A stretch of DNA of 64,000 nt, taken from Nitrospira sp. CR1.1 (GTDB taxonomy: Bacteria; Nitrospirota; Nitrospiria; Nitrospirales; Nitrospiraceae). Made by a program: the position numbers and the translations under genes. Shown in pieces: positions 5,924-55,785 of this stretch. The stretch is taken from NCBI GenBank assembly GCA_014055465.1, contig WIAF01000011.1, positions 62,001 to 126,000 on the forward strand, given 5' to 3'. Position 1 is the first letter of the stretch, and each line of letters opens with the position of its first letter. The notes under the pieces are model-generated. The model made no database searches and was not told where the DNA came from. It saw nothing but the letters and a program-made list of their open reading frames with translations.

Positions 5924-6241
5924 TCAGAGCTTAATCTCCACGTCTACACCAGCCGCCAAATTGAGCTTCATCAGTGAGTCCATAGTCTCTGGCGTAGGCT
6001 CCATGATATCCAGCAGACGCTTGTGCGTACGAATCTCAAATTGCTCGCGTGATTTTTTATCCACGTGAGTCGAACGCTGCACTGTAAATTTTTCAATTCG
6101 AGTCGGCAATGGGATAGGCCCGACAACCCGCGCGCCACTACGCCTGACCGTTTCAACAATCTCCACCACGGACTGATCAAGCACGCGATAATCAAAACCA
6201 CGCAGCCTGATGCGAATTCTTTGATCGACTTTCACGCTCAA
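5924..6241 (-). CDS. rpsJ: 30S ribosomal protein S10
   Basis: S10 (NusE) is a small-subunit protein and also part of antitermination complexes with NusB and NusG. The 105-residue product has [17 protein letters not shown], then [20 protein letters not shown], then [16 protein letters not shown], all diagnostic for the family. It follows tuf copy 1 by 34 bases, so the str and S10 gene groups form one continuous transcription unit here. The S10-leader attenuator known from enterics has no room in this gap. Confidence 0.97.
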
Positions 6242-6275
6242 CTCCTCACATGCCGGCCAGCAGACCAGGACATCC

Positions 6276-7481
<1,206 letters not shown>

Positions 7482-7514
7482 CCCCGATCCTCCCTAGTTC
7501 ACAGAACCCAGACC

Positions 7515-9596
7515 CTATTCACCACGGTGCTTAGCAGTAATCGCTTCAGCGATCTGCCGGGGAACCTGGTCGTACCGGTCAAATTCCATACTATAAGTTG
7601 CACGACCCTGCGTACGGGAACGCAAATCGGTCGCATACCCAAACATTTCCATCAGCGGAACGGTGGCTTCAATTGCCTGAGCGCCGGCACGAACCTTCAT
7701 GCCCTGAACTTTTCCGCGTCGACCATTCAAGTTCCCAATGACGTCTCCCATAAAGTCCTGCGGAACCAGCACTTCCACCTTCATGATCGGCTCTAGCAGG
7801 ACGGGATCTGCCTTCTTGCAGGCGTCAGCAAATCCCATGGAGGCGGCAATCTTGAATGCCATTTCATTGGAGTCCACGTCGTGGTACGACCCATCGATCA
7901 CGGTAACCTTCACATCTCGCAATGGGAATCCTGCAACAACACCCGTCTCCATCCGCTCTTTCACGCCCTTTTCGATAGCAGGAATATATTCTTTCGGGAT
8001 AGAGCCGCCGACTGTCTTATTGATAAACTCCAGCCCCTTACCAGACTCAGATGGCTCAACGGTCAAAACCACATGGCCATATTGACCTCGACCACCGGTC
8101 TGCTTGATATACTTCGATTCAGCTTCGGCCTTGCGGCGAATAGTTTCACGAAAAGCGACTTCAGGCTTCCCAACGTTCGCCTCAACCTTGAATTCACGCA
8201 TCAAACGGTCAACAATAATTTCGAGATGCAACTCCCCCATCCCAGCGATAATCGTCTGAGCCGTCTCTTCATCAGTTCGAACACGAAATGACGGATCTTC
8301 TTGCGCTAATTTCTGCAATGCAAAACCCATCTTTTCCTGATCAGGCTTCGTCTTAGGCTCAATAGCCATAGCAATGACCGGCTCAGGAAACTTCATGATC
8401 TCCAGCAAAACCGGCTGCTTTTCATCAGCCAATGTATCACCGGTCGTGGCGCTCTTGAGACCGACGGCGGCAGCGATATCACCGGCGTACACAATCTCGA
8501 TTTCTTCACGCTTATTCGCATGCATCTTCAAGAGACGACCCACTCGATCCTTCGTCCCTTTAGTAACGTTAAGAACAGGAGTTCCCGTCTTCAACGTACC
8601 CGAATACACTCGAAAGAATGTCAGCTGCCCGGCAAAAGGGTCCGTCATAATCTTGAAGGCCAGCGCAGAAAAAGGCTCAGAGTCTGACGGGCCACGCTCC
8701 ACATCTTTTCCAGTGGCCGGATCCACACCAATAACTGGAGGAATATCGACTGGCGATGGGAGGAAATCCACCACGGCATCCAACAGTTGCTGCACACCCT
8801 TGTTCTTGAAGGCCGACCCACAGAGAACAGGAACAACCTTCATCGCAATAGTTCCCGCACGAACTACCCGGCGAACCTCCTCCTCAGTCAGCGATTGACC
8901 GTTGAGGTACTTCTCCATGACCTGGTCATCGAATTCAGCGACTGCATCGAGCATTTTTTGCCGATAGTCATTGGCCTGATCGACCATATCAGCCGGGATT
9001 TCGCCGATCTTGTACTTGGCTCCGAGCGTCTCGTCGTCGTAAAAATAGCCCTTCATCGAAATCAGATCTACGGAACCACGAAACTCGGACTCTCGGCCAA
9101 TTGGAATCTGAACAGGAACAGGATTAGCGCCAAGCCTGTCGATTATCGATTGGACACTCGCATAAAAATCCGCGCCAATCCGATCCATTTTATTCATGAA
9201 AGCGATGCGGGGGACCTCGTACTTATCCGCCTGACGCCAGACAGTCTCAGACTGCGGCTCGACACCCTGAACAGAATCGAATGCCGCGACCGCGCCATCC
9301 AACACACGAAGGGACCGCTCCACCTCAATCGTAAAATCCACATGCCCAGGCGTATCAATAATATTGATACGGTGGTCACGCCAAAAACAGGTCGTAGCAG
9401 CCGCGGTGATCGTAATACCACGCTCGCGCTCCTGCTCCATCCAGTCCATGGTGGCAGCACCCTCGTGCACTTCCCCCATTTTATGGGTCATGCCCGTATA
9501 GAAGAGAATGCGCTCAGTGGTTGTCGTCTTTCCGGCATCGATGTGGGCCATGATGCCGATATTTCTTGTACGCTCTAACGGTGTCTGCCTAGCCAC
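7515..9596 (-). CDS. fusA: Elongation factor G
   Basis: EF-G drives translocation and, with RRF, ribosome recycling. The product from the chosen start is 693 residues. It has the P-loop [19 protein letters not shown], switch [11 protein letters not shown] and NKMDR, then the domain IV/V segments [10 protein letters not shown] and [14 protein letters not shown]. The frame is open 16 codons further upstream. I chose the GTG at 9594-9596 because GGGGGAG lies just before it and [18 protein letters not shown] is the family start. It is 113 bases downstream of rpsG and 33 bases upstream of tuf copy 1. Confidence 0.97.
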
Positions 9597-22509: not shown

Positions 22510-23715
<1,206 letters not shown>

Positions 23716-41418: not shown

Positions 41419-41495
41419 GCCCCCGTAGCTCAGTTGGATAGAGCAGCGGTTTCCTAAACCGCGGGTCGCACGTTCAATTCGTGTCGGGGGCACCA
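41419..41495 (+). tRNA. tRNA-Arg (anticodon CCT)
   Basis: The gene is 77 bases. Acceptor stem GCCCCCG/CGGGGGC, anticodon stem GCGGT/ACCGC enclosing TTCCTAA with anticodon CCT, T arm with GTTCAATTC, and CCA encoded. The gene is intact. Its 3' half serves as the left attachment site of a genomic island, and the duplicate of that half is at 55738-55785. Confidence 0.96.
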
Positions 41496-41496
41496 A
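41449..41496 (+). repeat. attL: left 48-bp direct repeat of the genomic island
   Basis: This sequence covers the tRNA-Arg gene from the anticodon stem to the CCA end plus one base. It matches 55738-55785 at 47 of 48 positions; the difference is A at 41470 versus G at 55759. A tyrosine recombinase gene begins five bases beyond it. Direct repeats of a tRNA 3' half at both ends of an element are the standard trace of integrase-mediated insertion. Confidence 0.92.
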
Positions 41497-41500
41497 TTTT

Positions 41501-42691
41501 TCAACAAGTTAGCGAAACCTGCTCTAGCCGAATCGCCGCTTGTGCTAAATTTGTGCTAAACGTCCTTCCCGCATCGAAAATCGCCACCCCATCCCGCAAA
41601 CTTTCCGGGTAATGATGCGCATACCGCTGCGTCATCATCGGCGATTTGTGCCCGAGAATCCGCTGGACCTTGTACAAGTCCACACCCGTCTGCACCATGC
41701 GTGTCGCACAGGTATGGCGCAGATCGTGGAACCGGAAATCTGACACCTGTGCGTGCTTGAGCGCCAATCGGAAGCTGCGTCGTAGGTTGGGAGCGTCCAA
41801 GGGTGTGCCTGCCGCGCTCGTAAACACTAACTCCGAATCAATACGCCGGCCACGAGCTTGAAGGGCCTGCACGAGCGTGTGAGTGAGCGGAATTGTCCGC
41901 CGCTCCCCGTTCTTTGATTTAAACACCGTGGCTGTCCGTCGAATGAGGTCCACGCCTGCCCAGGTGAGATTGAGAATTTCTCCACATCGCATCCCCGTAT
42001 GAATCGCGAAGACTATCACGTCCTGTAACCACGGTGCTGCAGCCGCAAGGAGTCGTCGCTCTTCCTCACACGTCAGCCATCGGTCACGCGTATTGTTTTC
42101 TCGCTCCATCGACACCCGGCACACCGGATTGTCCTTGGTCCATTCCCATTCGCGGCACGCCAGATTGAACGCCTTTTTCATGAGCGCCAATTTGACCTGC
42201 CCGCCATGTACCGGGCTCAACTTGAAGTCGCAGCTTTGCCCCTGATCGTGTCTCGTTGACAGGGAGCTTACAGGATCACCTGCAAAGCAAACAAGCGAGG
42301 GAAATGGTGCTATTTCCTGGGCTACTGCGTAGCCAGAAATGTTGCTTCTCTTTTGGGGATAGAGTAATCTCGTGCCCGTTTCCTGGCAGACGTAAATGAT
42401 AGCTTGCACATCCGGAAGGAGCAAGTAGATGCCATTCGGAGTCCAGCTTCGATCCTCAGCGACTCCTTCCTTGGCAGTGCGGCACCTCTCTCCTCCGTTC
42501 CAGAGCCGAACCGTCTCAACTACGACTTGCTTTCTGAGTCGAACCGAATTCTGGAAGTTCCGTTCTCCACTTCTCATCCTAATCGCAAGTCTCTCCTTTA
42601 CTCTCATGCTGAATCCTAAGCGGTCGTCGCAAGGAGGATGCTCATGAAGACTATACCGGTGCGCTTGTTGGCAGCATGCGTCGGCTGGCAA
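41501..42691 (-). CDS. Tyrosine recombinase (integrase), N-terminal part aberrant
   Basis: The C-terminal 225 residues are a complete tyrosine recombinase catalytic domain: AIHTGMRCGEILNLTW (first Arg), a lysine in FKSKNGERRTI, HDLRHTCATRMVQ (His-x-x-Arg), LGHKSPMMTQRYAH (His and Tyr). Before it LMKKAFNLACREWEW is the end of a core-binding domain. The first 170 or so residues of the open frame do not look like an integrase arm or core-binding domain. The gene may therefore be 5'-truncated or rearranged and its start is uncertain. It ends against tRNA-Arg and presumably inserted the island. Confidence 0.8.
   Translation of the reverse strand: MPADACCQQAHRYSLHEHPPCDDRLGFSMRVKERLAIRMRSGERNFQNSVRLRKQVVVETVRLWNGGERCRTAKEGVAEDRSWTPNGIYLLLPDVQAIIYVCQETGTRLLYPQKRSNISGYAVAQEIAPFPSLVCFAGDPVSSLSTRHDQGQSCDFKLSPVHGGQVKLALMKKAFNLACREWEWTKDNPVCRVSMERENNTRDRWLTCEEERRLLAAAAPWLQDVIVFAIHTGMRCGEILNLTWAGVDLIRRTATVFKSKNGERRTIPLTHTLVQALQARGRRIDSELVFTSAAGTPLDAPNLRRSFRLALKHAQVSDFRFHDLRHTCATRMVQTGVDLYKVQRILGHKSPMMTQRYAHHYPESLRDGVAIFDAGRTFSTNLAQAAIRLEQVSLTC
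41541..41560. repeat. 20-bp inner repeat, left copy (possible integrase arm site)
   Basis: The sequence TGTGCTAAATTTGTGCTAAA is made of two near-identical tandem units (TGTGCTAAA) and recurs exactly at 55591-55610. Here it also codes for part of the integrase C-terminus (FSTNLA on the minus strand). Its place near both ends suggests a recombination arm-type site; this is an inference. Confidence 0.55.
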
Positions 42692-43093
42692 ATGCTGTAC
42701 GTATCCGGCTGGGCTTCACCTGCGTATCCTGAGCCGTCCGAACAGGAGATGCGATGGGCGATCGAACAAGCGATGGTTCAACGAGGCGGCAGCCAAACCC
42801 GTCCCGGTGAAATCAGCGTCGATAACCCCATTAATGGTATGACGATGACCCTCAAGGCGTTTACGAAATTAGGCTGTGAGCCGGCGAATCGAGGACCAGG
42901 GTATGTCTGCTCGTATCATGTCAAGACGAAGATGAGCGCTCATTCGAACGAAGGTTCTCGACAGGGAGATAATCATGCTGCGGCGGTCAACCAACTTCTG
43001 GAGGCCATGATGGGGGGACAAGAGGAAGTGGCTGATACCGCTACGCGACGATTCCTACGAATGGGCGATGAATGGGTCATGTCGAGGGAGTAA
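42644..43093 (+). CDS. Secreted hypothetical protein
   Basis: The 149-residue protein starts MKTIPVRLLAACVGWQML with a signal peptide ending near GWASPA. AAGGAGG lies six bases before this ATG; an ATG two codons earlier is too close to that site. The mature part begins SEQEMRWAIEQAMVQRGG and has two cysteines (KLGCEPANRGPGYVCSYHV), probably bridged. No family is recognised. The beta-helix protein starts three bases after its stop, so both belong to one transcript at the left end of the island. Confidence 0.7.
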   Translation: MKTIPVRLLAACVGWQMLYVSGWASPAYPEPSEQEMRWAIEQAMVQRGGSQTRPGEISVDNPINGMTMTLKAFTKLGCEPANRGPGYVCSYHVKTKMSAHSNEGSRQGDNHAAAVNQLLEAMMGGQEEVADTATRRFLRMGDEWVMSRE

Positions 43094-43096
43094 CGA

Positions 43097-45448
43097 ATGA
43101 CCGTCATCGACAGAGGTAATGAGGCAGGCGCGAGGTCGGTACCTGATGTGTTGATTGGTCTTTTGAGTTCAGTGGCAAAAGGAAACACCGCTGTATTTGC
43201 AAAAGATGTTTCTGAGCGAGTTATCAAGGCAGAGTGGATTAAGTGTCTCGCGTTAGGATTGCCTTGGCCCGTTGAGGTCCATGAGCGTTGGAAGGAAATA
43301 GATCCCGCCCACATGATTCCCGAAGGGGGCGGCTCCGTGCCAATCGGTTATTCCGGGTTGCGCATTCGTGGCGCAGAAATTGTTGGCTCTCTCGATCTTT
43401 CGGGGTGCGGTTCGACGCAGTCACCGCTGCCCGCCCTGTCCCTTGAGGAGTGTATCTTCCAAGGCGAGGGACACGAAAAACCCAGTATTGATTTGTCCGA
43501 GGCTTCGCTCTGTGGTCTGAGTCTCAAAAATTCTCGATTTCGGCATTTGCGCGGCGTCGGCATGGCGGTAGCAGGTTCCGTAAAGCTGTCCGGTATTCGC
43601 CCTTCCGATGAGAGTGACCACGCGCGCTGTTGGTGCAAGCTGTCGCTCTGTACGATAGACGGTGACTTGGTCGCGGACAACACGACGATGCGTGCGCCTG
43701 ACATTGGGCAAAGCGGCGAACCTGCATTTCATGACTTCTCCGAATTGAATTGGGCAGTAAATACCTACGGCAGCCGAATCACAGGATCAATCTTGCTTCG
43801 TAAGAGCCCAGTCTTAGAGGGCGGCCTTCTAATGGATCGGGCTCATATCGGCGGAGATGTCTACATTGAAGGCGCCCAGGTAACGGCTATTAGCGGCCGA
43901 CGAGCCGTTGCAATGGAGCGTGCTCGTATAGATGGTAGCTTGACGCTAGTTGGCGCCCACAACTCTGATAAGAAAATGCAATGTGCTGGCTCGATATACT
44001 TAATGCTCTGCGAGGTTGGAGGCTCAGTCGATATCGGAAGGGTAAAGTTCCTCGTCCACACAGGGCACCGTGAAGCGCTGTATGCAATAGGCTTATCCGT
44101 GCGCGGCTGGATTACCCTAGACACGGTCGCTTCGGAAAGACCTATCACACTGAAGGATGCTCAGATAGGCGGAAATTTGCGCGTAGAGGAGGTGCGTATC
44201 CAAACGCTCACGTCTTTGAAGAAAGGGTCATCGAGGGAAATTGAGAGTGGACTGGTTCTTAGCGGCGTGCGGGTGGCCGGGACCCTTGTGCTCAAAGAAA
44301 ATGGTGTTGCCGATGGTATCGATATGACCGATGTGCGCTGCGCGACACTCCACGATAAAAAGTCTGGTTACGGCGATGCTACCAGTATCCTGATTGACGG
44401 ATTCCGTTGTGAACGTATCGATGGGATAAATGATTCTTTCGACGTTGAGGAACGGCTCAAGTGGTGGCTGCCGAAGGGCGAGCACTATCGCCCTCAACCG
44501 TATGTGCAACTTGCTCAGGTGCTCGCCAATCACGGGGAGGATGCGCTCGTCAGAAAGGTGTTATTTCACAAAGCTAAAGAAGACGCCGCTCATACCTGGA
44601 ACGATAAGATAGAGGGGAAAAAAGGACCACTGCTTAAGCGACTGGTTGAGATAACAAAACGGTCTGGCCGCCGCATTTTCTATTGGTTGGTCGTTTGGCC
44701 GTTTGGATTCTTTTTCGAGTTCGGCCTCTCACCAACTAAGGCTGTGTCCACCGTGATCGCGTTCATTGTGTTCGGATGTGCAATGTTTGGGTATGTAGAT
44801 TCAAAGAAAGCCCTAGTGGTTGCGCAGACCCCGGTTACGACCCTGGTACGTGAGGACGATGCGGATCCTCATAAATACAAGTTTGCATCTGCCTTTGTGA
44901 GTAAAGAAGTGCCCAAGAGCGAGTCGGAATCAGTGAATGGCCCCGCGTCGGTACAAAGCTCTGTATCTAGGGACTTGACGACGCCTGTGAAGGACTCCGT
45001 ACCCACGAATAAGTCGACTCCAGTGGAAGGGCGTGTGTCAACGCAAAAGCCGGTAATCGTGAAAGGGGCCCAGCCAGTGATAAAACCGGCACCAGCGAAA
45101 GAAGTGGCGTCTATAGCAGCACTAGAACCAATTCAAAAGCCAGTACCTGCGAACGCGTCGGCAGGAAAGAAGGAACAGCAACACAGTGACTACTCCGATT
45201 CCGATGTTCCCTGCAGAGACAGCATCCGTTTGCTCGTCTATGCAGCTGATGTGTTTATCCCACTGGTTGACCTTCGAGAAGAAGGAAAGTGTGAGATCGA
45301 TAAGGCTAAGGGATCGGAAGTGTCTGACGGGCTGATCACGACCTTTCGTCTCATGAAGGCGCTTTATGCCATCATAGGATGGCTGGTGACCGGCGCGGCG
45401 GTAGTAACTATCTCCGGCGTCATGCGCCACCGTCTGTTGCGTGACTAA
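43097..45448 (+). CDS. Membrane-anchored beta-helix repeat protein
   Basis: The 783-residue protein is predicted from sequence pattern to fold as follows. Residues about 85-430 hold repeated short strands such as GLRIRGAEIVGSLDLSGC, ITGSILLRKSPVLEGGLLM and IGGDVYIEGAQV, as in pentapeptide-like right-handed beta-helices. Then comes YRPQPYVQLAQVLANHGEDA, which is common in membrane-associated proteins of this type. Two hydrophobic segments lie near 530-570, then a Pro/Lys/Val/Ser-rich linker with a recurring KPV motif and a final helix (YAIIGWLVTGAAVVTISG). No enzyme motif is visible. A surface or envelope role next to the peptide operon is an inference. Confidence 0.7.
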   Translation: MTVIDRGNEAGARSVPDVLIGLLSSVAKGNTAVFAKDVSERVIKAEWIKCLALGLPWPVEVHERWKEIDPAHMIPEGGGSVPIGYSGLRIRGAEIVGSLDLSGCGSTQSPLPALSLEECIFQGEGHEKPSIDLSEASLCGLSLKNSRFRHLRGVGMAVAGSVKLSGIRPSDESDHARCWCKLSLCTIDGDLVADNTTMRAPDIGQSGEPAFHDFSELNWAVNTYGSRITGSILLRKSPVLEGGLLMDRAHIGGDVYIEGAQVTAISGRRAVAMERARIDGSLTLVGAHNSDKKMQCAGSIYLMLCEVGGSVDIGRVKFLVHTGHREALYAIGLSVRGWITLDTVASERPITLKDAQIGGNLRVEEVRIQTLTSLKKGSSREIESGLVLSGVRVAGTLVLKENGVADGIDMTDVRCATLHDKKSGYGDATSILIDGFRCERIDGINDSFDVEERLKWWLPKGEHYRPQPYVQLAQVLANHGEDALVRKVLFHKAKEDAAHTWNDKIEGKKGPLLKRLVEITKRSGRRIFYWLVVWPFGFFFEFGLSPTKAVSTVIAFIVFGCAMFGYVDSKKALVVAQTPVTTLVREDDADPHKYKFASAFVSKEVPKSESESVNGPASVQSSVSRDLTTPVKDSVPTNKSTPVEGRVSTQKPVIVKGAQPVIKPAPAKEVASIAALEPIQKPVPANASAGKKEQQHSDYSDSDVPCRDSIRLLVYAADVFIPLVDLREEGKCEIDKAKGSEVSDGLITTFRLMKALYAIIGWLVTGAAVVTISGVMRHRLLRD

Positions 45449-45565
45449 AAGTCATCGAAGAAGAAGGCGAGCCGAGAGGGTGTGGAGACAACAGGGTCAT
45501 GCCGTTGCTGATTGATTCAAGGTTAGTCTGATATGAGTGCTGCCGCTGGGGGGATTCCTAAACCT

Positions 45566-45571
45566 TATAAT
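45566..45571 (+). promoter_or_regulatory. Possible -10 element of the lanthipeptide-like operon
   Basis: TATAAT lies 19 bases before the start chosen for the small peptide gene (45590). No good -35 hexamer is found 16-18 bases upstream. If used, transcription begins near 45578, just before the ribosome-binding site, and the earlier in-frame start at 45533 could not be used. Confidence 0.25.
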
Positions 45572-45589
45572 TCGAGAGGGAGGGAGCTT

Positions 45590-45838
45590 ATGAATCTATC
45601 AAGTGCCGATCTTGTCAGGGCCAAGATTGATGCATTACGGAACACAGCAAAAACCGGAGAGCACCTTCACGAGGAGATGAAAGTGAATCTGACCGGATTT
45701 CTTGTACGATATGGCCTTATAGACAACGACCAAAGCATTGTTCGATCGCGGCCTGAAGCTGACCACAATTCCGGCTCTATCCACCTGTGTCCCTGGCACA
45801 CCTGCGCTGCAACTCGGCACGGTATGCCTCAGTCATAA
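45590..45838 (+). CDS. Candidate lanthipeptide precursor peptide
   Basis: The product has 82 residues from the ATG at 45590, which follows GAGAGGGAGGGAGC. The frame is open from an ATG at 45533, which has no comparable site. The first 60 residues are charged and helix-prone (SSADLVRAKIDALRNTAKTG), like a leader. The last 22 are rich in Ser, Thr and Cys (SGSIHLCPWHTCAATRHGMP, then QS), with three Ser, two Thr and two Cys able to form thioether rings. It ends three bases before the synthetase frame. The role as substrate rests on position and composition; no precursor family is recognised. Confidence 0.5.
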   Translation: MNLSSADLVRAKIDALRNTAKTGEHLHEEMKVNLTGFLVRYGLIDNDQSIVRSRPEADHNSGSIHLCPWHTCAATRHGMPQS

Positions 45839-45841
45839 GAA

Positions 45842-48490
45842 TTGACTTCCTCTCGGCGGCAACGCGTGGCGGAAATCTTTTCCGCCACGCTCGAGAAATT
45901 TTCAGCCAACCTTCCCCCTCACTGGCTCACGTACGATTGGGTTCAAGGGTCTCTTTCCTGGCGCTCATTCTCACTTCCGGGCAGGTCGTTCGCCGCGCAA
46001 GGTTGGAAATTGCACGTATCGGCAGGGGCAGTCGAGGTTGCTGATATGTACTCGTTGGTCATCCCCCTTCTCCTACAATTCGAAGCCACCTTTAAGGTGG
46101 CCCGTAGTCTTAACGATGTTGTCTTCATTAATTCAGGGGATGGGGGCGCGCCCCAACTTGGAAAGGTGATGACCATCTATCCAGAAAGTGATGACCATGC
46201 GAGAGACATTGTGCTGCAGATCGATCGCGTTTGGCCTCGAAGTCGCGGACCCGAAGTGCAAACCGATTTGCACATCCGCCCGGGATCGGCGGTCTCCTTG
46301 CGGTACGGAACGTTTGGTTCTCAGCCGATCATGGTCAACGAATCCGGGATATACGAATATGCGCTCTGTGGGTCAAATGGTACGTTGGTTGCGGACATGC
46401 GGCAGCTGAATGGGGAGCAATCCAGACTTGCGCCGGTTCCGCCAGTTGATTGTTGTCGGCCTCGTCAGCCCCCGATAGAGCTTAATGTCCCCTTTGTCGT
46501 AAACGGGAAGGAGTTTGTTGCCCTAACGTCATTGAGCGTACGTCCTGGAAAGCAGATCTTTTTAGGTCTCGCAATCGACACGCTTCGAAGTGTGATCATA
46601 AAGATCGGCATTCCTGGCGTTGCCGGTGATCACAGAGGTCTGGATGTCAGGGACAACTTGAAAAAAGAGTTTTTCGTTCTTTCCGCACTTTCAGACAAGG
46701 AAGGGCTCGCGCCGAAACCGCTTGAGTGGTTCGAACATGAATGGCCGGTAGGGATTACAGAAGATTTTAGAGGGAGCACCATTGCAGAGCTAGGCCGCGA
46801 GCAGCAGATATCTTGCTTAGTTCTTCTGGCAAATGCCGTGGTTAGGTTGCATGGAGCCGGATTTGTTCACGGCGACATCAAACTTGAGAATGCAATTCTG
46901 CGAGATCGCCGTGTAGGGCTGATCGACTTTGAGTTGTCGGAGCGAGAAGGAGACATCGCTGGTGTAGGGGGGACCAGGGGATATCTGGCACCAGAGGTTA
47001 CGGCCGATGCTATAGCAACTTTTCCCCGTGACATTTATGCCCTAGGGATGTGTGTGGCGCATGCATGCCTCGGAATTCCGCCTGGATTATTGCCGGCCGG
47101 TATTGGGCGGGTTCAGGGCTTCCTAGAGATTGAAGGCTTATACCCGGCCCGCCAACTGATCCATGATTTCTGCCACACCGATCCTGCAGCTCGTCCGAAT
47201 GCAACGGAGGCGGAAGCCGCAATCTCCGCTGGAATCAAGCTACGCTCATGGGAGCCGGTAGCCGATGGTCGGCCGAGTACGGTGGAGGATCTCAACTGGT
47301 GTCGACGAGCAAGTATTGGAGCTGCGTCTTTTGTTGAGCGGTATTGGTGTGCCGAACAGCGAGGCGGCGGTTGGCGTAACGAGCATTTTATGAGCTCTTT
47401 CACTTGTGAGGGAATTAACATTGGCGCGGCAGGAATTGTCATCGGCTTGGCCACAATTGATGCGGCTCTTAATCGGTCGGATTTCAGCGGACACATGGAC
47501 CAAGGCGCCAGGTGGTTGAGTAACCGGCCACCATTGAAAAAAGCTGTTGGAGTCTTCACTGGAAACGCTGGAGTCGCAATTGCTCTGGCTCTTACCGGAC
47601 GAAGACTTAATTCACAGGCATACCTTGTTGCAGCACAGGAACGGTTCGCATCAGCATGCACGAGCCCTCGCGAGACCGACTTGTTTTCAGGGAGTGCAGG
47701 GGTGCTTTGGGCAGGCTGTATCTTGAACGAAATCTTAAAGGAAACATGGCCTTTGGAATTGGCACATCGTGCCGTATGTCATATTAACGCATCGTCGAGT
47801 GATGTAGCAGGAATTCCAGTTTGGACGCTAGAGCCTGGGACGGACACCCCGTATCTTGGTTGCGCGCACGGCTCAGCGGGTGTTGCAATGGCGCTTGGCT
47901 GCTGGGGACGACGAGTCGGAGACCAAGACTGTGTCGAGACAGCAGTGGGGACATTCCAACAGATCGCCAAGCGTGGACGGACCGACAATGGACTGGCTTT
48001 GAAAATGGCCGTGAACTCCAATCGACATCATGCCGTGGGGAATTGGTGCCATGGGGTTGCCGGATATCTTTGGGCTATTCTGCAAGGTCTTGGAGATACA
48101 CCTTCTCTTCGAGCGGAGATCGACTGGGCAGTCGATATTCTCCAAGATGAGCGGTCAGTGGGCACTCCAACTTACTGCCACGGTCTTTCGGGACAGCTTG
48201 AGCTCTGGCGCATGCTCAGGGGAATACCTCGCTTTCAGAGACTTGCCGAAGCCCGTGCCGGGAAGGTGGCTCATGCCCTCCGCTGTGCCCATAGTAAACG
48301 AGGTGGAAACTGTCTATGGGTTTCTGACGATCCTGATGTGATCACTCCCGATCTCTGGGTTGGTTTTCTCGGACCTGCGACAGCGTTGGCGCTGCATGCT
48401 TCAGGGAGTCCTTGGCCTTTGCTATCAGCAGAATGGCTAACGACCTGTTCTAATCCAGACTCTGGTGCTGACGTGCCAGTGAGAGGGTAG
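45842..48490 (+). CDS. Class III/IV-type lanthipeptide synthetase (lyase-kinase-cyclase)
   Basis: The 882-residue protein has the three-domain layout of LanKC/LanL enzymes, which phosphorylate Ser/Thr, eliminate phosphate and close thioether rings. The N-terminal lyase-like region has GWKLHVSA (near residue 55), GKVMTIYPES and PGSAVSLRYGTFG. The kinase has HGDIKLEN (His343) and IDFELSE, the DFE form usual in this group. The LanC-like domain has CAHGSAG (His676), NWCHGVAG (Cys736) and YCHGLSG (Cys779, His780); these are the zinc and catalytic residues, present in class IV and lost in most class III enzymes. The start is TTG at 45842 or a nearby GTG. The first dioxygenase gene follows after five bases. 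Confidence 0.85.
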   Translation: MTSSRRQRVAEIFSATLEKFSANLPPHWLTYDWVQGSLSWRSFSLPGRSFAAQGWKLHVSAGAVEVADMYSLVIPLLLQFEATFKVARSLNDVVFINSGDGGAPQLGKVMTIYPESDDHARDIVLQIDRVWPRSRGPEVQTDLHIRPGSAVSLRYGTFGSQPIMVNESGIYEYALCGSNGTLVADMRQLNGEQSRLAPVPPVDCCRPRQPPIELNVPFVVNGKEFVALTSLSVRPGKQIFLGLAIDTLRSVIIKIGIPGVAGDHRGLDVRDNLKKEFFVLSALSDKEGLAPKPLEWFEHEWPVGITEDFRGSTIAELGREQQISCLVLLANAVVRLHGAGFVHGDIKLENAILRDRRVGLIDFELSEREGDIAGVGGTRGYLAPEVTADAIATFPRDIYALGMCVAHACLGIPPGLLPAGIGRVQGFLEIEGLYPARQLIHDFCHTDPAARPNATEAEAAISAGIKLRSWEPVADGRPSTVEDLNWCRRASIGAASFVERYWCAEQRGGGWRNEHFMSSFTCEGINIGAAGIVIGLATIDAALNRSDFSGHMDQGARWLSNRPPLKKAVGVFTGNAGVAIALALTGRRLNSQAYLVAAQERFASACTSPRETDLFSGSAGVLWAGCILNEILKETWPLELAHRAVCHINASSSDVAGIPVWTLEPGTDTPYLGCAHGSAGVAMALGCWGRRVGDQDCVETAVGTFQQIAKRGRTDNGLALKMAVNSNRHHAVGNWCHGVAGYLWAILQGLGDTPSLRAEIDWAVDILQDERSVGTPTYCHGLSGQLELWRMLRGIPRFQRLAEARAGKVAHALRCAHSKRGGNCLWVSDDPDVITPDLWVGFLGPATALALHASGSPWPLLSAEWLTTCSNPDSGADVPVRG

Positions 48491-48495
48491 CAACA

Positions 48496-49332
48496 ATGGC
48501 GTTAATGGAGGAGCACCAGAACAAGTTTGTTGTTGATGGAGTGGTCTATGTCAATCATGCGCTCGATCAGCGAGGGATTGAGGCTGCTGAAAGTGCGTTT
48601 CGATGGACATTGGACCATCCGGGACCGGGAGCGCGACGCGTGTTGGCAGGCCGACCAGGTGCCTTCTTTCAGGATCATGCCAACCCGAATGCCTTTCCTG
48701 CTTATAGATCCCTTTTGATTGAAACATCTCTCTCTAAGCTGGTGGCGGATGTGCTTGGAACTCACAATCTTTGGTTGCTCTATGAACAGATCTGGCTCAA
48801 GGAAGGTGGTGAAACACTCGCCACACCCTGGCACCAAGATCTTCCATATGTTCCTATGAGCGGAGAGCATCTGGCTACGGTCTGGCTCACCCTGGATTCT
48901 GTCCGTAAAGAAGAGTCTCTTGAATTTGTGTGTGGATCCAATCGGGGACCTCTATTTAACCCCACAGCCTTTGATCCTAATGACTCGACCGCTGCGATGT
49001 TTGAAGATGGAGTGTGGATGCCTTTGCCTGACATTGAGTCAGAGCGTGCGAAATACGATATTGTTTCCTGGGCTATTGAGCCTGGCGATGTGATCATCTT
49101 CCACCCTGCCATACTTCATGGTGGTGCGCCTACTCGTGCAGGAGAGAAACGGCGCACAATTTCGCTCCGGTTTTTTGGCGATCACGCCTACTGCGCTGCA
49201 CGACCAGAAAAGGGGGTGGCGGAGGTGGACCGGCTGCTGATAGAGCAAGATACTGCCGATCCAATGAGGCAGATGGCCAAGCTTCAACCTGGCACGCTGT
49301 TCCGTCACCCTGAATTTCACAAAGTGGTGTAA
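48496..49332 (+). CDS. PhyH-type Fe(II)/2-oxoglutarate dioxygenase
   Basis: The 278-residue protein belongs to the phytanoyl-CoA hydroxylase-like superfamily. The iron-binding facial triad is visible: His and Asp in TPWHQDLPYVPM (near residue 113) and the distal His in HPAILHGGAPT (near 205). An Arg in RRTISLRFFGD follows and would bind 2-oxoglutarate. It starts five bases after the synthetase stop, so it is almost certainly in the same operon. By analogy with the 2-oxoglutarate hydroxylases of cinnamycin/duramycin pathways, peptide hydroxylation is a reasonable inference. The substrate is unproven. Confidence 0.85.
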   Translation: MALMEEHQNKFVVDGVVYVNHALDQRGIEAAESAFRWTLDHPGPGARRVLAGRPGAFFQDHANPNAFPAYRSLLIETSLSKLVADVLGTHNLWLLYEQIWLKEGGETLATPWHQDLPYVPMSGEHLATVWLTLDSVRKEESLEFVCGSNRGPLFNPTAFDPNDSTAAMFEDGVWMPLPDIESERAKYDIVSWAIEPGDVIIFHPAILHGGAPTRAGEKRRTISLRFFGDHAYCAARPEKGVAEVDRLLIEQDTADPMRQMAKLQPGTLFRHPEFHKVV

Positions 49333-49437
49333 TTTCGTAATTCGAATGGCTGATGACGACGTGCCAGGTTTAGCGCGGCCTCTCTCCGTGTTGTCTGAGT
49401 ATGCGCATGAAAACTTAGCAGATGAATGAGGGCAGTG

Positions 49438-50298
49438 ATGCGATTCTGCAAACTTGGCGAAACCCTTGGCGCCGAAGTAACGGGGCTTAACCTTCAGGCG
49501 CCTCATGGTCGACGAGAGATCGACCAATTGATGAAGAAGTGGTCTCGGCACGGTGTGCTGGTATTTCGTGGACAAAGGATCACCGATGAAGAGCAGGTGC
49601 GTTTCGCTCGTCGTTTGGGCCGTCTTGAAACGTTCACCCCGAGGAAGGAAAATGTTCCTTTTATCCCCGAGATCTTTCGTTCATCCAACACGGATGAGTT
49701 AGGGCAGTTACTGCCGTCCCACGACGAACGAATCAAAATGCTGCGGTTGAATTGGCTATGGCACATTGATAGCTCTTATCGCGAATTGCCTATTAAGGGC
49801 GTAGTTCTGCGGGCTCTGCATGTAGCCGAGGAAGGCGGCGATACGATCTTTGCTGACAATGTCACTGCGTTTGAGAAACTACCTAGTGTCATGAAGAGAC
49901 GTATCGAAAGTCTCAGGGCGATCCATAACTTTGCATATCTGGTCCGTCAGCAAGGAGATGATTTGCGCCCGGAGGAGGCGGTGAGTTTGCCGCGTACTGA
50001 GCATCCCCTAGTTCGTCGGCATGCAGATGGACGCCGATCGCTGTACCTGAGTCCGCCCTACATGGAAAAGATCGTGGGCTGGAGCGATGCCGACAGTCAC
50101 ACCTTGATTCACGAGCTTATGGCCTGGGCCACGCAGGAAAATTTCCTTTTCCGCCACCGCTGGCTGCCGCATGATGTCATCATGTGGGATAACGCATGGA
50201 CCATGCATCGCGTCACCCCGTACGATGTCACGCGCCACATACGTGCCGTACACGGGGTAACGATTCTCGGAGAGAAGCCCGTCCTTCCTCAAAAATGA
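49438..50298 (+). CDS. TauD/TfdA-type Fe(II)/2-oxoglutarate dioxygenase
   Basis: The 286-residue protein has the TauD/TfdA fold: GAEVTGLNLQAPHGRREIDQ and GVLVFRGQRITDEEQVRFAR at the N-terminus. The triad is WHIDSSYRELP (His and Asp, near residue 108) and NAWTMHRVTPYD (His). The arginine in RHIRAVHGVTI binds 2-oxoglutarate in the family. TauD/TfdA members oxidise sulfonates, phenoxyacetates or amino acids on carrier proteins. The ATG at 49438 follows GAGGGCAG; an ATG four codons upstream also exists. It lies 105 bases after the PhyH-type gene in the same direction, so it probably belongs to the operon. Confidence 0.85.
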   Translation: MRFCKLGETLGAEVTGLNLQAPHGRREIDQLMKKWSRHGVLVFRGQRITDEEQVRFARRLGRLETFTPRKENVPFIPEIFRSSNTDELGQLLPSHDERIKMLRLNWLWHIDSSYRELPIKGVVLRALHVAEEGGDTIFADNVTAFEKLPSVMKRRIESLRAIHNFAYLVRQQGDDLRPEEAVSLPRTEHPLVRRHADGRRSLYLSPPYMEKIVGWSDADSHTLIHELMAWATQENFLFRHRWLPHDVIMWDNAWTMHRVTPYDVTRHIRAVHGVTILGEKPVLPQK

Positions 50299-50426
50299 GC
50301 CTATTTCACGACTGTAGTATTCCTGCACGAATAACGACTAATACTTGTTGGGAAGCCTGGGATAATCCGTAATCGGTTTCCGATGCTCAACAGCCTCAAG
50401 GATGATCGTCCGTGAATCGTTGTGGG

Positions 50427-52088
50427 TTAGATTGCGTCATCTACCAACTGGGAAGTGAGCAACGCCAGTACCCCCAACACGAATTTATCATGGATGTCCT
50501 GCCGATAGTACGATCCGAGCGCGTTGAAATAGGACGAGACTTGCGAAGCTGGGTCTTGCGTGTCTATGAGGAATTTGGATATCCGGCTTAGTTGTCTGAA
50601 ATAGTCTCTTGGATTGGCAGTATGGTCGCGCTGAAGGTAATGGAGGCATCGCTGGCTTCGTAATTGAAGTGCGGTCTCCCGACAGGCGGACGCCACCTCG
50701 CCGTAATTAAAGAGACCGACAGTGGCTGGGTAGTTATCAGTGATTTCGCTGTCTTCACGGTGGACTTGCAAGAACGCTTTCCCTGAGCTGATCATCAGAC
50801 TCGAGGTGGCTTGACCTTCAAATACCCCCGGAAGCGCACTTCGCGCAAAAAAGGCATTATAAACATCCCCCGGCACCGGACCAAGTAACGCCACAATTAC
50901 ATCATATTGAGCCGCGCGATTCATCGTTGCTTCCAGGGATGATGCGATATCCATATAAGTTCCTTGAACGAAGTCGTAAGTTGACAAACAGACAAGTCTG
51001 GCCCCCTGTTCAATCCATGGCCCTACATGCCTTGCCGTTTCGCACACGAACCGGTCCAACATCTCTTGCGACAGCTCTCCCCTACCCATCACACGAGCGT
51101 ATTCTCGACCAAGAGCATTCTTGAACGCAGTGAGTTCAAAGTCCCGACTCACGAGATCGTCGGCAAAAGGAGACAACAGGGCTTCAAAGTGAGGGATGGC
51201 CGTCGGCTTATTGAAACAGCAGGCCATGATGGGCCGTCCAAGGACTTGTTGCGCGCCGAAAGCTGTGAATATTATGTTCAACGCGATTTCGGAAATCTGA
51301 TCACGAAACTGGTGGAGTCCGTAGAGGGGCCAGAGGCCAAGGCGAGTGTGCTCTTGCGACATTTGATAAACAGCGCGTGCATTCTTCGTGTTAATTCGAA
51401 GGTCTTGATCAAAGTTTTGGGTGGTGGCATACCAATTCCAGATCTCCTCTGACACGTCGGCACATAAGGAAGGTGGAAACGTAAACGGAAGGCTCCGAAA
51501 AGATGAATGGGCATCCACCATATAAAACGACTGCCCCTGGGGTGTTTCAATCCTGGAGCTTGCGTAATAAGGATCAGCTTTCTTAGATGCGTGATCGTCC
51601 CAGAGATATGGCTGGAGCCGAAGAAAATAGATGACTTTGAGCTCTCTAGCCAAGTTGATTGACATCTCATCCGCTCCACCGGTAAACCCCAGGGTCACTT
51701 CGTCCCTGAGTCGGTGACGATCGTTATAGGGAAGAAAGGAGATATGACGACATGGGCCGTAGGTGATCACTGATGCGGCTATTTTTCGCGGATCAACCCC
51801 CGGCAAGAGAACGGCTAGTTTGTGGGCCGTACTGTTCGGCGGCAGACTAGGGTTCTCGGCGAAGATAATGCAGAGTCGTCCCGCATAACCTGTTCGATCG
51901 ATCAGTCGTCTCATGAGGTTTATTGAGGCCGCCTGATGACCAAAATGATGTGCCCCATCTACGAAAAAGCGGATTTCTTTTTGATCTTTGATGAGCGCGA
52001 ACACGTCTTGCAGCACCCGCGTCGTCTCAGGATCGTCCGCCGTTTCCATTAGTAGGAAATTCTCAACAATGTGCCTAAAGTGTTCCAT
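50427..52088 (-). CDS. Large hypothetical protein of unknown function
   Basis: I do not recognise this 553-residue protein. It has no signal peptide or membrane helix. Near residue 40 it has FVDGAHHFGHQAASINLMRR, followed by an alternating strand/helix pattern (GRLCIIFAENPSLPPNS, LGFTGGADEMSINLARELKV) that could be a Rossmann-like or GT-B-type N-terminal domain. A second segment has IMACCFNKPTAIPHFEALLS and VIVALLGPVPGDVYNAFFA. The gene converges with the dioxygenase operon (128-base gap). A glycosyltransferase-like fold is a weak guess from the Gly-His pattern only. Confidence 0.7.
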   Translation of the reverse strand: MEHFRHIVENFLLMETADDPETTRVLQDVFALIKDQKEIRFFVDGAHHFGHQAASINLMRRLIDRTGYAGRLCIIFAENPSLPPNSTAHKLAVLLPGVDPRKIAASVITYGPCRHISFLPYNDRHRLRDEVTLGFTGGADEMSINLARELKVIYFLRLQPYLWDDHASKKADPYYASSRIETPQGQSFYMVDAHSSFRSLPFTFPPSLCADVSEEIWNWYATTQNFDQDLRINTKNARAVYQMSQEHTRLGLWPLYGLHQFRDQISEIALNIIFTAFGAQQVLGRPIMACCFNKPTAIPHFEALLSPFADDLVSRDFELTAFKNALGREYARVMGRGELSQEMLDRFVCETARHVGPWIEQGARLVCLSTYDFVQGTYMDIASSLEATMNRAAQYDVIVALLGPVPGDVYNAFFARSALPGVFEGQATSSLMISSGKAFLQVHREDSEITDNYPATVGLFNYGEVASACRETALQLRSQRCLHYLQRDHTANPRDYFRQLSRISKFLIDTQDPASQVSSYFNALGSYYRQDIHDKFVLGVLALLTSQLVDDAI

Positions 52089-52250
52089 GTGGGATGCACC
52101 AACTTCTCATTTGTGAGCAAAGGTGAGATTCGAGGCCCAACTGGTTATCATAGCGAGGGCGAATGAACAAGAGTGTGGTCGAATGACTGCTTCTCTTTTT
52201 GATCCGAGCCTTATCGGTCGGGTTCTACTCTGATACCACGAAAACCTGAG

Positions 52251-52709
52251 TCAAGAGTTTGGACCTCTCGTGCTGAAACGCCGCTCTCCCCGCTGCCGGG
52301 AATTGTGCCAGCGTTGAGTGTAATCAAGGATATCTTGGTCAACCTGGATATCTGTACCAAGTCTAAGGAGAGTTACCAGCGGTGATGGTGGGGGCGAGGA
52401 GCGGACTCTTTGCAGCCCGCTTGGAAAACTTCTCTGGTTTCCGATGCTGGAGCGCCCGATGACGGCTACGCTCGTGGTAGTCTCGCCGGCGCGCCGCGAT
52501 GCGCGGTGAGGACACGAATCCGCTACCCGGAGCGCGGTGCGCGTGTTCCGATGACTCTGATAGCGACGTGTGGGATATCGCCGTTTCCACCAAGAGAACG
52601 TCTGTTCGGCAATCCCGAGGTGGCAGATCACATCGGCGATCGGGGCACCCAGCTACACCTGCTTCAGCACCGCCACGATTTGTTCCATGCTGAAGCGTTT
52701 CCGTTTCAC
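52251..52709 (-). pseudogene. IS3-family transposase remnant (OrfA with internal stop, OrfB end)
   Basis: Read on the minus strand from the GTG at 52707-52709, after AGGAGAACGCC, the sequence gives VKRKRFSMEQIVAVLKQ and then TAG. In the same frame it continues with GAPIADVICHLGIAEQTFSW, the OrfA helix-turn-helix of IS3-type elements. After a scrambled part, VDQDILDYTQRWHNSRQRGE resembles the end of OrfB. Most of the transposase is missing. No clear inverted terminal repeats were found. It is a decayed copy, not active. Confidence 0.7.
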
Positions 52710-52738
52710 GGCGTTCTCCTTTCCCCTACAGGGCGAGT

Positions 52739-52983
52739 GTGAGTGACGGTGCTGGCGCAACTGCCGTCTACACCTATGAGGCTGTGGACAACCTGCTCTC
52801 GGTCGACCGCCTCACACCCCCTGGCAGCGGCATCGGGATCTATCTCGTTAATCCAGTCGCTGGGCCGGTCATGCAATTTTGCCGAATACAAGGATATGGA
52901 AAGGATATGGATTTGATCCGGTCGCCTCCAACAATGTCGTGAAGTTTAATGGGGTGACCGCCACGGTGTCGCTGGAGTTACGC
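52739..52983 (+). pseudogene. Rhs/YD-repeat and TIG-domain gene fragment
   Basis: One frame gives TAVYTYEAVDNLLSVDRLTP, a YD/RHS repeat. After a frameshift near 52890 another gives GFDPVASNNVVKFNGVTATV, typical of a TIG/IPT domain. It ends at a stop at 52981-52983, overlapping the end of the vapC-type gene on the other strand. Both parts are found together in large RHS/YD-repeat proteins. The piece is far too short to function and begins right beside the IS3 remnant, so it may be a truncated neighbour of that insertion. Confidence 0.55.
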
Positions 52984-53394
52984 TGACCGTTTCCAGCTTT
53001 CGACGATGAGGCCAGGAATGCGCTGGAAGTGCGCGAGGTTGTTCGTAATCAACGGACGCTGCGCGTCCAAGGCGGTAGCGGCAATGAGCAGGTCTGCATC
53101 GGGCAGCAAAGCCCCCTGTCGATGGAGATCGCCGTATAACGTCGCCGCGCGCTCTACGACTTGGTCGGTGATCGGCAGAATGAGACTGGCCTGGCAGAGC
53201 AACGTGAAGGCCGCCTCTTGAGTCCGTGCCTGTTTCGCCTTCAGTCCCCGCAGGAGTTCATAGCGAGTGATAATCGAGAAGGCCAGCCGCTGGTGCTCCG
53301 CCAGATAGTTCCGCACCCGCTGCACGACGAGGGGATGTTGCTTGAGAAGTTCGGAGAGAATATCGGTATCGAGGAGGGCAGCCGGTTGCGGCAT
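52978..53394 (-). CDS. VapC-type PIN-domain toxin
   Basis: PIN-domain toxins are Mg-dependent RNases that cut tRNA or other RNAs. The 138-residue protein has the acidic residues of the fold: Asp in LLDTDILSELLKQHP (residues near 8-10), Glu in TRYELLRGLKAK, Asp in PDADLLIAATALDA. The ending ITNNLAHFQRIPGL carries Asn where many members have Asp, as in some VapC lineages. Its ATG overlaps the antitoxin stop by one base (TAATG), the classical toxin-antitoxin layout. Confidence 0.92.
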   Translation of the reverse strand: MPQPAALLDTDILSELLKQHPLVVQRVRNYLAEHQRLAFSIITRYELLRGLKAKQARTQEAAFTLLCQASLILPITDQVVERAATLYGDLHRQGALLPDADLLIAATALDAQRPLITNNLAHFQRIPGLIVESWKRSA

Positions 53395-53630
53395 TAGGCA
53401 GCCGGCTCACGGAAGAAGTGCTGCCGATCCAACGCAATGGACTCGACCTGCGTGATCTCGTCGGTACTCAGTCCGTGATAGACCTGTGCGGCACGCCGCA
53501 GAATTTCGTCCGCGCCAAGCGCGAGCTCGGTATCGATCGTGACCTGTACTTCCGCATCATCAGTCAACGCAAGAGGTTCCAACGGCTGTAACACTCCGCC
53601 ATGATAGCGGGCTTTGATTGTTTGTCGCAT
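53394..53630 (-). CDS. DUF104-type antitoxin partner of VapC
   Basis: The 78-residue protein begins MRQTIKARYHGGVLQPLEPL, which matches the DUF104 antitoxin family (short AbrB-like proteins next to PIN toxins). A GGAGGAGGG site precedes the ATG at 53628-53630. An earlier frame start lacks a site. The C-terminal half (STDEITQVESIALDRQHFF) would wrap the toxin. It is expected to repress its own operon together with the toxin, as known for the family; the operator is not identified. Confidence 0.85.
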   Translation of the reverse strand: MRQTIKARYHGGVLQPLEPLALTDDAEVQVTIDTELALGADEILRRAAQVYHGLSTDEITQVESIALDRQHFFREPAA

Positions 53631-53831
53631 CGTGGAGCCCTCCTCCGCCCTCACCCATCTGAATTAGTGAGCTAGCCGCTCCCATTCTACTCAAACCGGA
53701 CCCAAATCTCACCACTTGTCGCAAGATCGCCCCTCAGCCTACAAAACTTACTGGTTTGTCGCTGTTCCCAACGAACTGTCTCGCCAGAGGGGCTCACTTC
53801 AGTTTTCACCGACGAAGAAGGTGGGGAGAGG

Positions 53832-55445
53832 TTACCTTGTATCCTTGGTAATTAAGGCACTTGCGACTCCAACCAGAGCAAACGCTTTATGAGAGGGGAA
53901 CTCAGCAGCTGTAATCCACCGAACGACGCCGTCCACATCTCCATGTTTTGTTTGATTAAAGGCAAGCCACTTAAACGTCTCGCCGCTTTCGGTATCGTGC
54001 TCAGGGATCAATAGCGCATAACCAAGGGCTTCCTGCAGCGCGCCATGGTCTGCACGGGAAAGGGCGATCCGGCTTAACGTGTGGGCGGTGGCACGTGAAA
54101 AGGAGTGCAGCTGAGAGAACAATTTCATCGCCCGAGCATCGCCCGTCCTAAGGCTGTCTAACGCCTCTGCTGTTTCGACGAACACTCGTGCTTCCGCAAT
54201 CGCTTGTTGGTGTACCTGGATGAGGGTTAGCGCGTGCGTGATTTTACCCGCTTCCGCAGCGGAGGCTGCAACAGAAGCATACGCGGTAGTTCTTGCCTCA
54301 TCACTCTTAATTTTTGCAATGGTTTCCATCGCTCTATCCAATGTCTCCACTGCCACTTGGCGTTCAGCAATTCGACTCAACGCATAGTCCATCAGCGAGT
54401 CGTCGCCCTTCCCTAGCAACGCGGTCTGTAGTGCCCCCTCATAGTCCTGGGCCTGAGCTTGGACACCTACGATCTCCCGTAGTGCGAAGTTCCGGTGCCC
54501 TTCTAGTTCAATAGTCAGTGCAACCTTCCTCGACTGAGTAATGTCATGAGCACGAGCGTACAGCGTGGCAATGCGCCATTGTAGGTCTGCTCTTGCATAA
54601 ATGTTGTATACGGCGGGCGCCTCCTGCGTTGCTATCGTGAGGCTATCCAGACACCCTTGCACATCCCCCTCAGCGAGCTGGCGGTGCGCAGTGTCTTTGT
54701 AGGTAAGCGCCTTAACACCTCGAACAGGAATTGTGGCGGCGACGTTGAGTTGGCGCATGCGGTTTTTCTCTGCCATGGTCACTGCCCAGAGCAGGTAACT
54801 TTTGAAGCCTTGATCCTCTGTTAGCTCAGTAAGCTGGACCGCCTCGTCTGGCAATCCGGTAGCCAGTTGCAGCTGCATCAATGGAATCAAAGAGTAGGGG
54901 TTCGCCCTCCATACATCCTGTACGGTTCGTAATGCAGCGGGTACGTCTCCATTTTTTGCCTGGATTTCGGCTATGCGATAGAGCGCAGTCCCACGGGCAG
55001 CGTAGTTTTCCGAAATTTCTGCTGAGAGTTGGAGTGCTCTTTGAATATCTCCACCGGCGGCATAGGCGATGGCGATATGAGACAAGGCATTGGCGCGAGC
55101 AATTTGTTCGGAAATACGTGCACGGGTCTGTTCGGCTCCTGTGATATTACCCTTACTTGCCTGGATCTCGACAACAGTCACCCACGCATTGTCTTTGTTT
55201 CCGGGCAACGGCTCCAATTCCGCGGTCTTCATCGCACCAGCCTCGTCACCAATTTTTTGCTGGGCTCTAAGGATGTCGAGAAGAGCACTCCGCTTTACAG
55301 TGTCATCAGCTATGTGTGCCGCGTTGTTACTCGCGTCACGCAGGAGGGTTAGCGCCGAGAGATCTTCGGCCCATCCACTGGATGGATAAGGTGCTCTCAC
55401 GACAATAAGGAGACAGGCGTACACAACAAACGAGCGAGGTTTCAT
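53832..55445 (-). CDS. Exported TPR-like repeat protein
   Basis: The 537-residue protein begins with a signal peptide (MKPRSFVVYACLLIVVRAP, cleavage near GWA-ED). The rest is a chain of about 15 helical-hairpin repeats with the pattern A-x-x-x-I-A-x-x-x-A-x-x-G-[DN]-x-x-x-A-L, for example ALSHIAIAYAAGGDIQRALQ and RGTALYRIAEIQAKNGDVPA. This fits TPR-type solenoids used for protein binding. No catalytic motif is visible. It is the last full gene of the island before the right attachment site. Its function is unknown. Confidence 0.75.
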   Translation of the reverse strand: MKPRSFVVYACLLIVVRAPYPSSGWAEDLSALTLLRDASNNAAHIADDTVKRSALLDILRAQQKIGDEAGAMKTAELEPLPGNKDNAWVTVVEIQASKGNITGAEQTRARISEQIARANALSHIAIAYAAGGDIQRALQLSAEISENYAARGTALYRIAEIQAKNGDVPAALRTVQDVWRANPYSLIPLMQLQLATGLPDEAVQLTELTEDQGFKSYLLWAVTMAEKNRMRQLNVAATIPVRGVKALTYKDTAHRQLAEGDVQGCLDSLTIATQEAPAVYNIYARADLQWRIATLYARAHDITQSRKVALTIELEGHRNFALREIVGVQAQAQDYEGALQTALLGKGDDSLMDYALSRIAERQVAVETLDRAMETIAKIKSDEARTTAYASVAASAAEAGKITHALTLIQVHQQAIAEARVFVETAEALDSLRTGDARAMKLFSQLHSFSRATAHTLSRIALSRADHGALQEALGYALLIPEHDTESGETFKWLAFNQTKHGDVDGVVRWITAAEFPSHKAFALVGVASALITKDTR

Positions 55446-55737
55446 AGGATGTCACATTGAAGACAATGAATTCCTGAATAGACAGTACGCGTGTGGAGGG
55501 CTATCGTCAAAGAAACGGCTATTTTGTGGAGAGTGGACCGACACGAGGAGCAACACTACTGTCTCAATCTAGGGGTGCAGTCCAAAACTCTGTGCTAAAT
55601 TTGTGCTAAAAATTTTCAAAACCCATCTATACTTCTCGAAACAATGGATTCGATGGAATGCACGCAAACAAATGTTTTCGCAGCAAAAAATGGGGAAACC
55701 ATTGATACACCGAGCATTTCAAAAATCGTCCAGGCCT
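55446..55737. other. Non-coding AT-rich end of the island
   Basis: This 292-base stretch before the right attachment site has no supported gene. It holds the right copy of the 20-bp inner repeat (55591-55610), and the 120 bases after it are AT-rich with several A-tracts. This arrangement is common around integrase-binding arms. Confidence 0.5.
55591..55610. repeat. 20-bp inner repeat, right copy
   Basis: The copy is identical to 41541-41560, in the same orientation, with its two tandem TGTGCTAAA units. It lies 127 bases inside the right attachment site, and the left copy lies 44 bases inside the left one. Here it is not coding. Confidence 0.6.
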
Positions 55738-55785
55738 GTTTCCTAAACCGCGGGTCGCGCGTTCAATTCGTGTCGGGGGCACCAA
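55738..55785 (+). repeat. attR: right 48-bp direct repeat (3' half of tRNA-Arg)
   Basis: It equals 41449-41496 with one difference (G at 55759). It includes the anticodon loop region, T arm, acceptor 3' strand and CCA of tRNA-Arg, but the 5' half is missing, so it is not a tRNA gene. It marks the right end of the island. Confidence 0.92.

Follow-up and report, generated by a model that had tools for sequence, protein, structure and literature searches.

Lanthipeptide synthetases of class IV (and of classes I and II) are set apart from those of class III by the zinc ligands of their cyclase domain (PMC7268733). As of 2020, class IV lanthipeptides had no reported secondary modification (PMC7268733). 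In the class III enzyme ThurKC, the lyase residues K65, H67, K94, K117, D152 and R163 matter by mutation (PMC10604976). Here we present a locus of Nitrospira sp. CR1.1 in which a putative class IV-type synthetase stands beside a small peptide gene and two different oxygenases. It lies in a stretch of 64,000 nucleotides, hereafter the window (assembly GCA_014055465.1, contig WIAF01000011.1, positions 62,001 to 126,000 of the forward strand). We consider it probable, with good confidence, that the locus is a complete-looking class IV-type lanthipeptide cluster carried as cargo by an integrative island at a tRNA-Arg gene. A first reading of the same DNA, the original prediction, had called it a lanthipeptide-like cluster; our analysis supports that reading and refines it with a class IV-type assignment, a fifth gene and a probable upstream pair, and a constraint on the ring pattern.

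Four open reading frames (ORFs) run on the forward strand where the original prediction had placed them. The precursor peptide gene (LanA, 45590-45838, 82 amino acids) is preceded by a ribosome-binding site read from the sequence, AGGGAGGGAG (45577-45586), and similar purine-rich sites lie upstream of the precursor homologues. Downstream follow the genes for a predicted LanL-type lanthipeptide synthetase (45842-48490, TTG start, 882 amino acids), a PhyH-type Fe(II)/2-oxoglutarate oxygenase (48496-49332) and a TauD/TfdA-type Fe(II)/2-oxoglutarate oxygenase (49438-50298). The gaps of 3, 5 and 105 bases first described hold when TauD starts at the ATG at 49438; with the longest ORF, which begins at 49426, the last gap is 93. 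The lyase-kinase-cyclase layout and the two oxygenase types proposed for these genes are confirmed by Pfam matches that all exceed the curated cut-offs (RamC_N lyase 1.1e-29, Pkinase 1.6e-12, LANC_like 6.2e-27, PhyH 2.7e-16, TauD 5.9e-61). As had also been remarked, the Nitrospira operon holds no dedicated protease or transporter gene.

To place the locus among genomes we scanned 84,980 species genomes for the synthetase with a method that relies on short exact patterns and detects close relatives only. Two relatives were found, one in Nitrospira defluvii (73 % identity) and one in Azohydromonas australica DSM 1124, a betaproteobacterium (50 %). The synthetase occurs in 2/366 Nitrospirota and 1/399 Burkholderiales genomes (E <= 1e-25) and, with a three-sequence profile, in 1/398 Pseudomonadota genomes (E <= 1e-40). 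The single match in both Proteobacteria samples is A. australica; three other species of Azohydromonas lack the synthetase. The co-occurrence of synthetase, small peptide and both oxygenases, which the original prediction had proposed to look for, is found in all three genomes and thus in two phyla. The core genes evolve under purifying selection, with ratios of nonsynonymous to synonymous substitution rates (dN/dS) of 0.07-0.33.

Both oxygenases keep their HxD...H site in all three loci (H113/D115/H208 in the PhyH protein of the window) and are 49-86 % identical between them: relative to the window proteins, PhyH orthologues show 86 % (N. defluvii) and 61 % (Azohydromonas) identity and TauD orthologues 81 % and 49 %. 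PhyH lies directly downstream of the synthetase in 3/3 loci. TauD follows PhyH in Nitrospira and is found about 3 kb upstream of the operon in Azohydromonas, where a cytochrome P450 gene lies between and TauD adjoins a BT1-family transporter gene. These extra genes of the Azohydromonas cluster (4853-7584 of locus L006) comprise the transporter after TauD and the P450, divergent from the precursor gene, whose closest named family is pentalenolactone synthase, below the cut-off.

A precursor-like small ORF stands in the same place in both relatives (82 amino acids in N. defluvii, 71 in Azohydromonas). The leaders (about residues 1-62 in the window peptide) barely align. Within the core, SIHLCPWHTCAATRHGMPQS, the invariant part CPWHTCAATRHG is identical at 12/12 residues in the three precursors from two phyla and reads C1-P-W-H-T5-C6-A-A-T9-R-H-G. 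Between the two Nitrospira precursors, the 20-codon core differs by five synonymous changes and a single amino-acid-changing one, and dN/dS is 0.05 in the core versus 0.40 in the leader. Because its place is conserved in two other genomes, the 12-residue core is invariant and purifying selection acts on it, a chance ORF appears very unlikely, and the peptide fits the leader-core pattern of a lanthipeptide precursor. A search for the core motif in viral contigs and plasmids found none. Twelve residues that stay unchanged in different phyla point to a target under strong constraint.

The core also limits which rings can form. It contains only two Thr and two Cys, along with three invariant His (H65, H70 and H77 of the precursor). 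Between residue 55 of the leader and Cys67, the N. defluvii precursor is free of Ser and Thr, which leaves only Thr residues further downstream as partners for Cys67; Thr71 and Cys72 are adjacent. On this composition each Cys of the invariant core should be able to pair only with a Thr that is C-terminal to it, save for the adjacent Thr-Cys pair.

The synthetase carries a lyase (residues 37-200), a kinase (about 225-460) and a zinc cyclase (about 510-850). Its lyase and cyclase parts, on which the original prediction depended, were thus both detected by domain search, with catalytic and zinc-binding residues intact. Lyase residues K56, H58, K85, K108, D142 and R154 align in this order with the six ThurKC residues given above. 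The kinase residues K254, E276, D345, N350 and D362-F-E364, the zinc ligands C736, C779 and H780 and the catalytic acid H676 are invariant in the enzymes of the window, N. defluvii and Azohydromonas; all of them except E276 and F363 align identically in 5/5 other LanL-type proteins. Because the three zinc ligands of the cyclase are all kept, as are the lyase and kinase residues, we assign the synthetase to the class IV (LanL) type by its residues; assignment to class III was rejected, the zinc ligands being present. The enzyme is closer to the class IV than to the class III NCBIfam profile (334 bits, cut-off 650, versus 197 bits, cut-off 575), the LanL equivalog score of 650 bits being an annotation threshold and not a biochemical definition. 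Identity to five LanL-type proteins from plasmids is about 22-27 %, and in a tree the synthetase forms a branch of its own apart from these five (support 1.0), which we read as a separate, divergent LanL-type lineage. The best PDB match by sequence is 8car; a model built from the three-sequence alignment reached a predicted local distance difference test (pLDDT) score of 36.5, too low for use.

The original prediction had set the span of the cluster at 45590-50298. The four genes within it stand; the extent does not, since a gene on the reverse strand (50427-52088) and two upstream genes (42638-45448) accompany the cluster. The first encodes a partner protein of 553 amino acids with orthologues in both other loci. 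It occurs in 2/366 Nitrospirota genomes, exactly the synthetase-bearing two, and in 1/396 Pseudomonadota genomes, the cluster-bearing Azohydromonas. Because it co-occurs with the synthetase in Nitrospirota and adjoins the synthetase operon in Azohydromonas, we count it, by this distribution, as the fifth gene of the cluster. Profile searches of Pfam, NCBIfam and PDB returned nothing significant for it, also when an Azospirillum homologue was added, and a search of viral contigs found no relative. By eye, a D...GHQA...L..R start, a late LPxxxEGQ and alternating strands and helices make it a candidate GT-B-like glycosyltransferase, a reading drawn from motifs only. A further relative forms the N-terminal module of a 4096-amino-acid LysM/Ig-like protein on plasmid pAB510d of Azospirillum sp. 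B510 (L010 14914-27204); it is the only one found outside the cluster.

Upstream and on the forward strand lie genes for proteins of 151 (42638-43093) and 783 amino acids (43097-45448), both of which accompany the cluster in both Nitrospira and are probably part of the gene set. The 151-amino-acid protein is kept beside the cluster in N. defluvii (88 % identity, dN/dS 0.07) and has no Pfam match. The 783-amino-acid gene is present in 2/29 genomes of the genus, exactly those with the synthetase, and a shortened homologue adjoining a transposase-like ORF lies beside the Azohydromonas cluster. Its product, also with no Pfam match, has, as judged by eye, membrane segments toward the C-terminus and an N-terminal part rich in repeats, and possibly has an immunity or export role.

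A genomic island had been claimed for this region with no evidence given, and the island is now documented. It extends over 14.3 kb (41419-55784) from a tRNA-Arg(CCT) gene on the forward strand (41419-41495, ARAGORN) to a 47-bp repeat of the end of that gene with one mismatch. The final 47 nt of the tRNA gene (41449-41495) form the left attachment (att) repeat, and the copy at 55738-55784 (forward strand, 46/47 identical) is the right att repeat and the right end of the island. A tyrosine recombinase, the phage-type integrase of the island (41501-42691, reverse strand; Pfam Phage_integrase 5.5e-37), adjoins the tRNA gene; the start of its longest ORF is uncertain, as it overlaps the 151-amino-acid gene (42638). 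Paired TGTGCTAAA repeats lie close to both ends (41541-41560 on the left; direct repeats at 55591-55610, forward strand, on the right) and are possible integrase arm sites. G+C is 53.5 % inside versus 57-59 % outside, and the site is empty in three other Nitrospira. Taken together, these sequence features indicate a real tRNA-integrating island. In another Nitrospira and in N. defluvii the same tRNA site holds other cargo with a related integrase (DNA 88-89 % identical). The lanthipeptide genes of N. defluvii are not at this site (about 0.9 Mb versus 1.23 Mb), and the cassette therefore moves without depending on this integrase. As an observation in its own right, tRNA-Arg(CCT) is an integration hotspot of Nitrospira, used by one integrase family with cargo that differs in kind and length by species. 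The island also contains a PIN-domain protein beside an AF2212-like small protein (52978-53654), a VapBC-like toxin-antitoxin pair. Elsewhere in the window, two identical elongation factor Tu gene products are encoded at 6276-7481 and 22510-23715, in a ribosomal-protein region.

We propose the following route to the product. The leader would dock on the synthetase, whose kinase would phosphorylate core Thr5 and Thr9 (precursor Thr71 and Thr75); the lyase would eliminate phosphate to leave two dehydrobutyrines, to which the zinc cyclase would add Cys1 and Cys6 (precursor Cys67 and Cys72). The simplest and most likely pattern would be a pair of small methyllanthionine rings lying side by side, Cys1-Thr5 and Cys6-Thr9, in each of which Cys is the N-terminal partner; the class II system SyncM provides a known case of rings in which Cys precedes Ser/Thr (PMC9872173). 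PhyH and TauD would then hydroxylate or desaturate core residues, with Pro, Trp, His and Arg as candidates, and the 553-amino-acid protein may transfer a group (possibly a sugar) onto a newly made hydroxyl or onto Trp. A general protease encoded elsewhere would cut off the leader, and the cut may fall after Gly62, which is invariant. Alternatively, a C39-type exporter may remove it after Gly62: proteins with C39 domains are encoded elsewhere in each genome (one per Nitrospira, three in Azohydromonas). Because such domains also match in 8/14 control genomes, the exporter role is only a guess. A wider proposal joins all these elements into a cross-phylum family whose His/Cys-rich, possibly metal-binding peptide carries two reversed rings, undergoes double oxidation by PhyH and TauD and is finished by a new transferase family. 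As a whole we regard it as doubtful; if true, one exact core would be held under a constraint imposed by a target or a metal in two distant phyla.

Other explanations share much of the same evidence. The PhyH and TauD families are large and act on many small molecules, and in Azohydromonas TauD is set apart from the operon, near the BT1 transporter and the P450. The precursor could therefore be dehydrated and cyclised while one or both oxygenases belong to an unrelated small-molecule pathway that shares the island. We consider this unlikely, since in each of the three loci PhyH stands right after the synthetase, and the orthologues of both oxygenases follow the precursor across two phyla with different flanks. 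A slightly smaller chance is given to a synthetase that makes noursin-like His-to-butyrine crosslinks, instead of or besides thioethers, on a Cys/His-rich and possibly metal-binding peptide. One subgroup of lanthipeptide synthetases does make His-butyrine links, in a product that binds copper (PMC10206099); the invariant His and the two Cys of the present core would suit such a product. That subgroup, however, is placed in class III and has a distinct cyclase domain, whereas the cyclase found here keeps the thiol-activating zinc ligands (PMC9934072) and Cys and Thr are balanced two to two. Decay of the cluster into a non-functional remnant is suggested by the shortened Azohydromonas copy of the 783-amino-acid gene next to its transposase-like ORF, but we hold it to be very improbable: the reading frames are all open, the core genes show the purifying selection described above and every catalytic residue examined is kept.

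Several points nevertheless weigh against a class IV-type lanthipeptide cluster as we describe it. Only three loci are available, two of them from one genus, and the score of the synthetase falls below the curated class IV cut-off. Product, expression and enzyme activity are predictions, and the reversed rings, like the preference for side-by-side over nested ones, are deduced. The substrate of the oxygenases could be a different one, and the detached Azohydromonas TauD, with its transporter and P450, need not be co-transcribed with the operon. For the partner protein there was no family match, and its three-sequence model (pLDDT 48.6) is too poor for use; a fold search with this model returned nothing at E <= 0.001 and was disregarded. 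On the other side, because the gene set travels together and the core is identical in a very distant bacterium, the locus is best read as encoding a real product rather than a chance arrangement.

The product would be a ribosomal natural product of Nitrospira, a genus of nitrite oxidisers important in wastewater plants, for which the open-access papers searched report no lanthipeptide. The open-access literature was searched for lanthipeptides from Nitrospira or Azohydromonas, for lanthipeptide clusters with PhyH and for class IV with dioxygenase, and the cluster was not found described there; non-open papers may differ. With two oxygenases and a partner beside one short invariant substrate, this chemistry would be accessible by co-expression and mass spectrometry.

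Compared with described systems, the synthetase resembles the class IV LanL enzymes in its N-terminal phospho-lyase, its central Ser/Thr kinase with a D-x-E motif, its C-terminal LanC-like zinc cyclase (Cys, Cys-His) and its single adjacent precursor gene. It differs from them in its low identity, its own branch, its place below the NCBI equivalog cut-off, and in the company of two oxygenases and a partner of no assigned family; the usual LanL hosts are Actinobacteria and Firmicutes (PMC7268733), whereas the hosts here are Nitrospirota and Betaproteobacteria. With the class III LanKC enzymes such as ThurKC and RamC it shares the three-domain layout and the lyase catalytic residues. Class III cyclases, however, are devoid of the zinc ligands present here (PMC7268733, PMC10604976), the position of ThurKC K108 is Gly in this enzyme and the LELQ-type leader motif is missing. 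Noursin and its synthetase LanKC-Hbt likewise combine a three-domain enzyme with a His-containing core and are set apart, by description, through a different cyclase group, one Cys versus two here, and a labionin-type Ser pattern that this core lacks. The class II duramycin hydroxylase DurX is an Fe(II)/2-oxoglutarate enzyme that hydroxylates one core residue of its lanthipeptide, a likeness by description; DurX acts on Asp, which is missing from this core, and is a single oxygenase where two of different families stand here. The glycosylated class III lanthipeptide NAI-112 offers a possible analogy through the invariant core Trp and the candidate glycosyltransferase, the class of synthetase being different. 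Lanthipeptide biosynthesis itself is well known, and a locus such as this might be picked up as class III/IV by an automatic pipeline; what is new is the divergent LanL lineage, the invariant core with Cys before Thr, the PhyH and TauD pair with a partner of no assigned family, and the mobile distribution across phyla.

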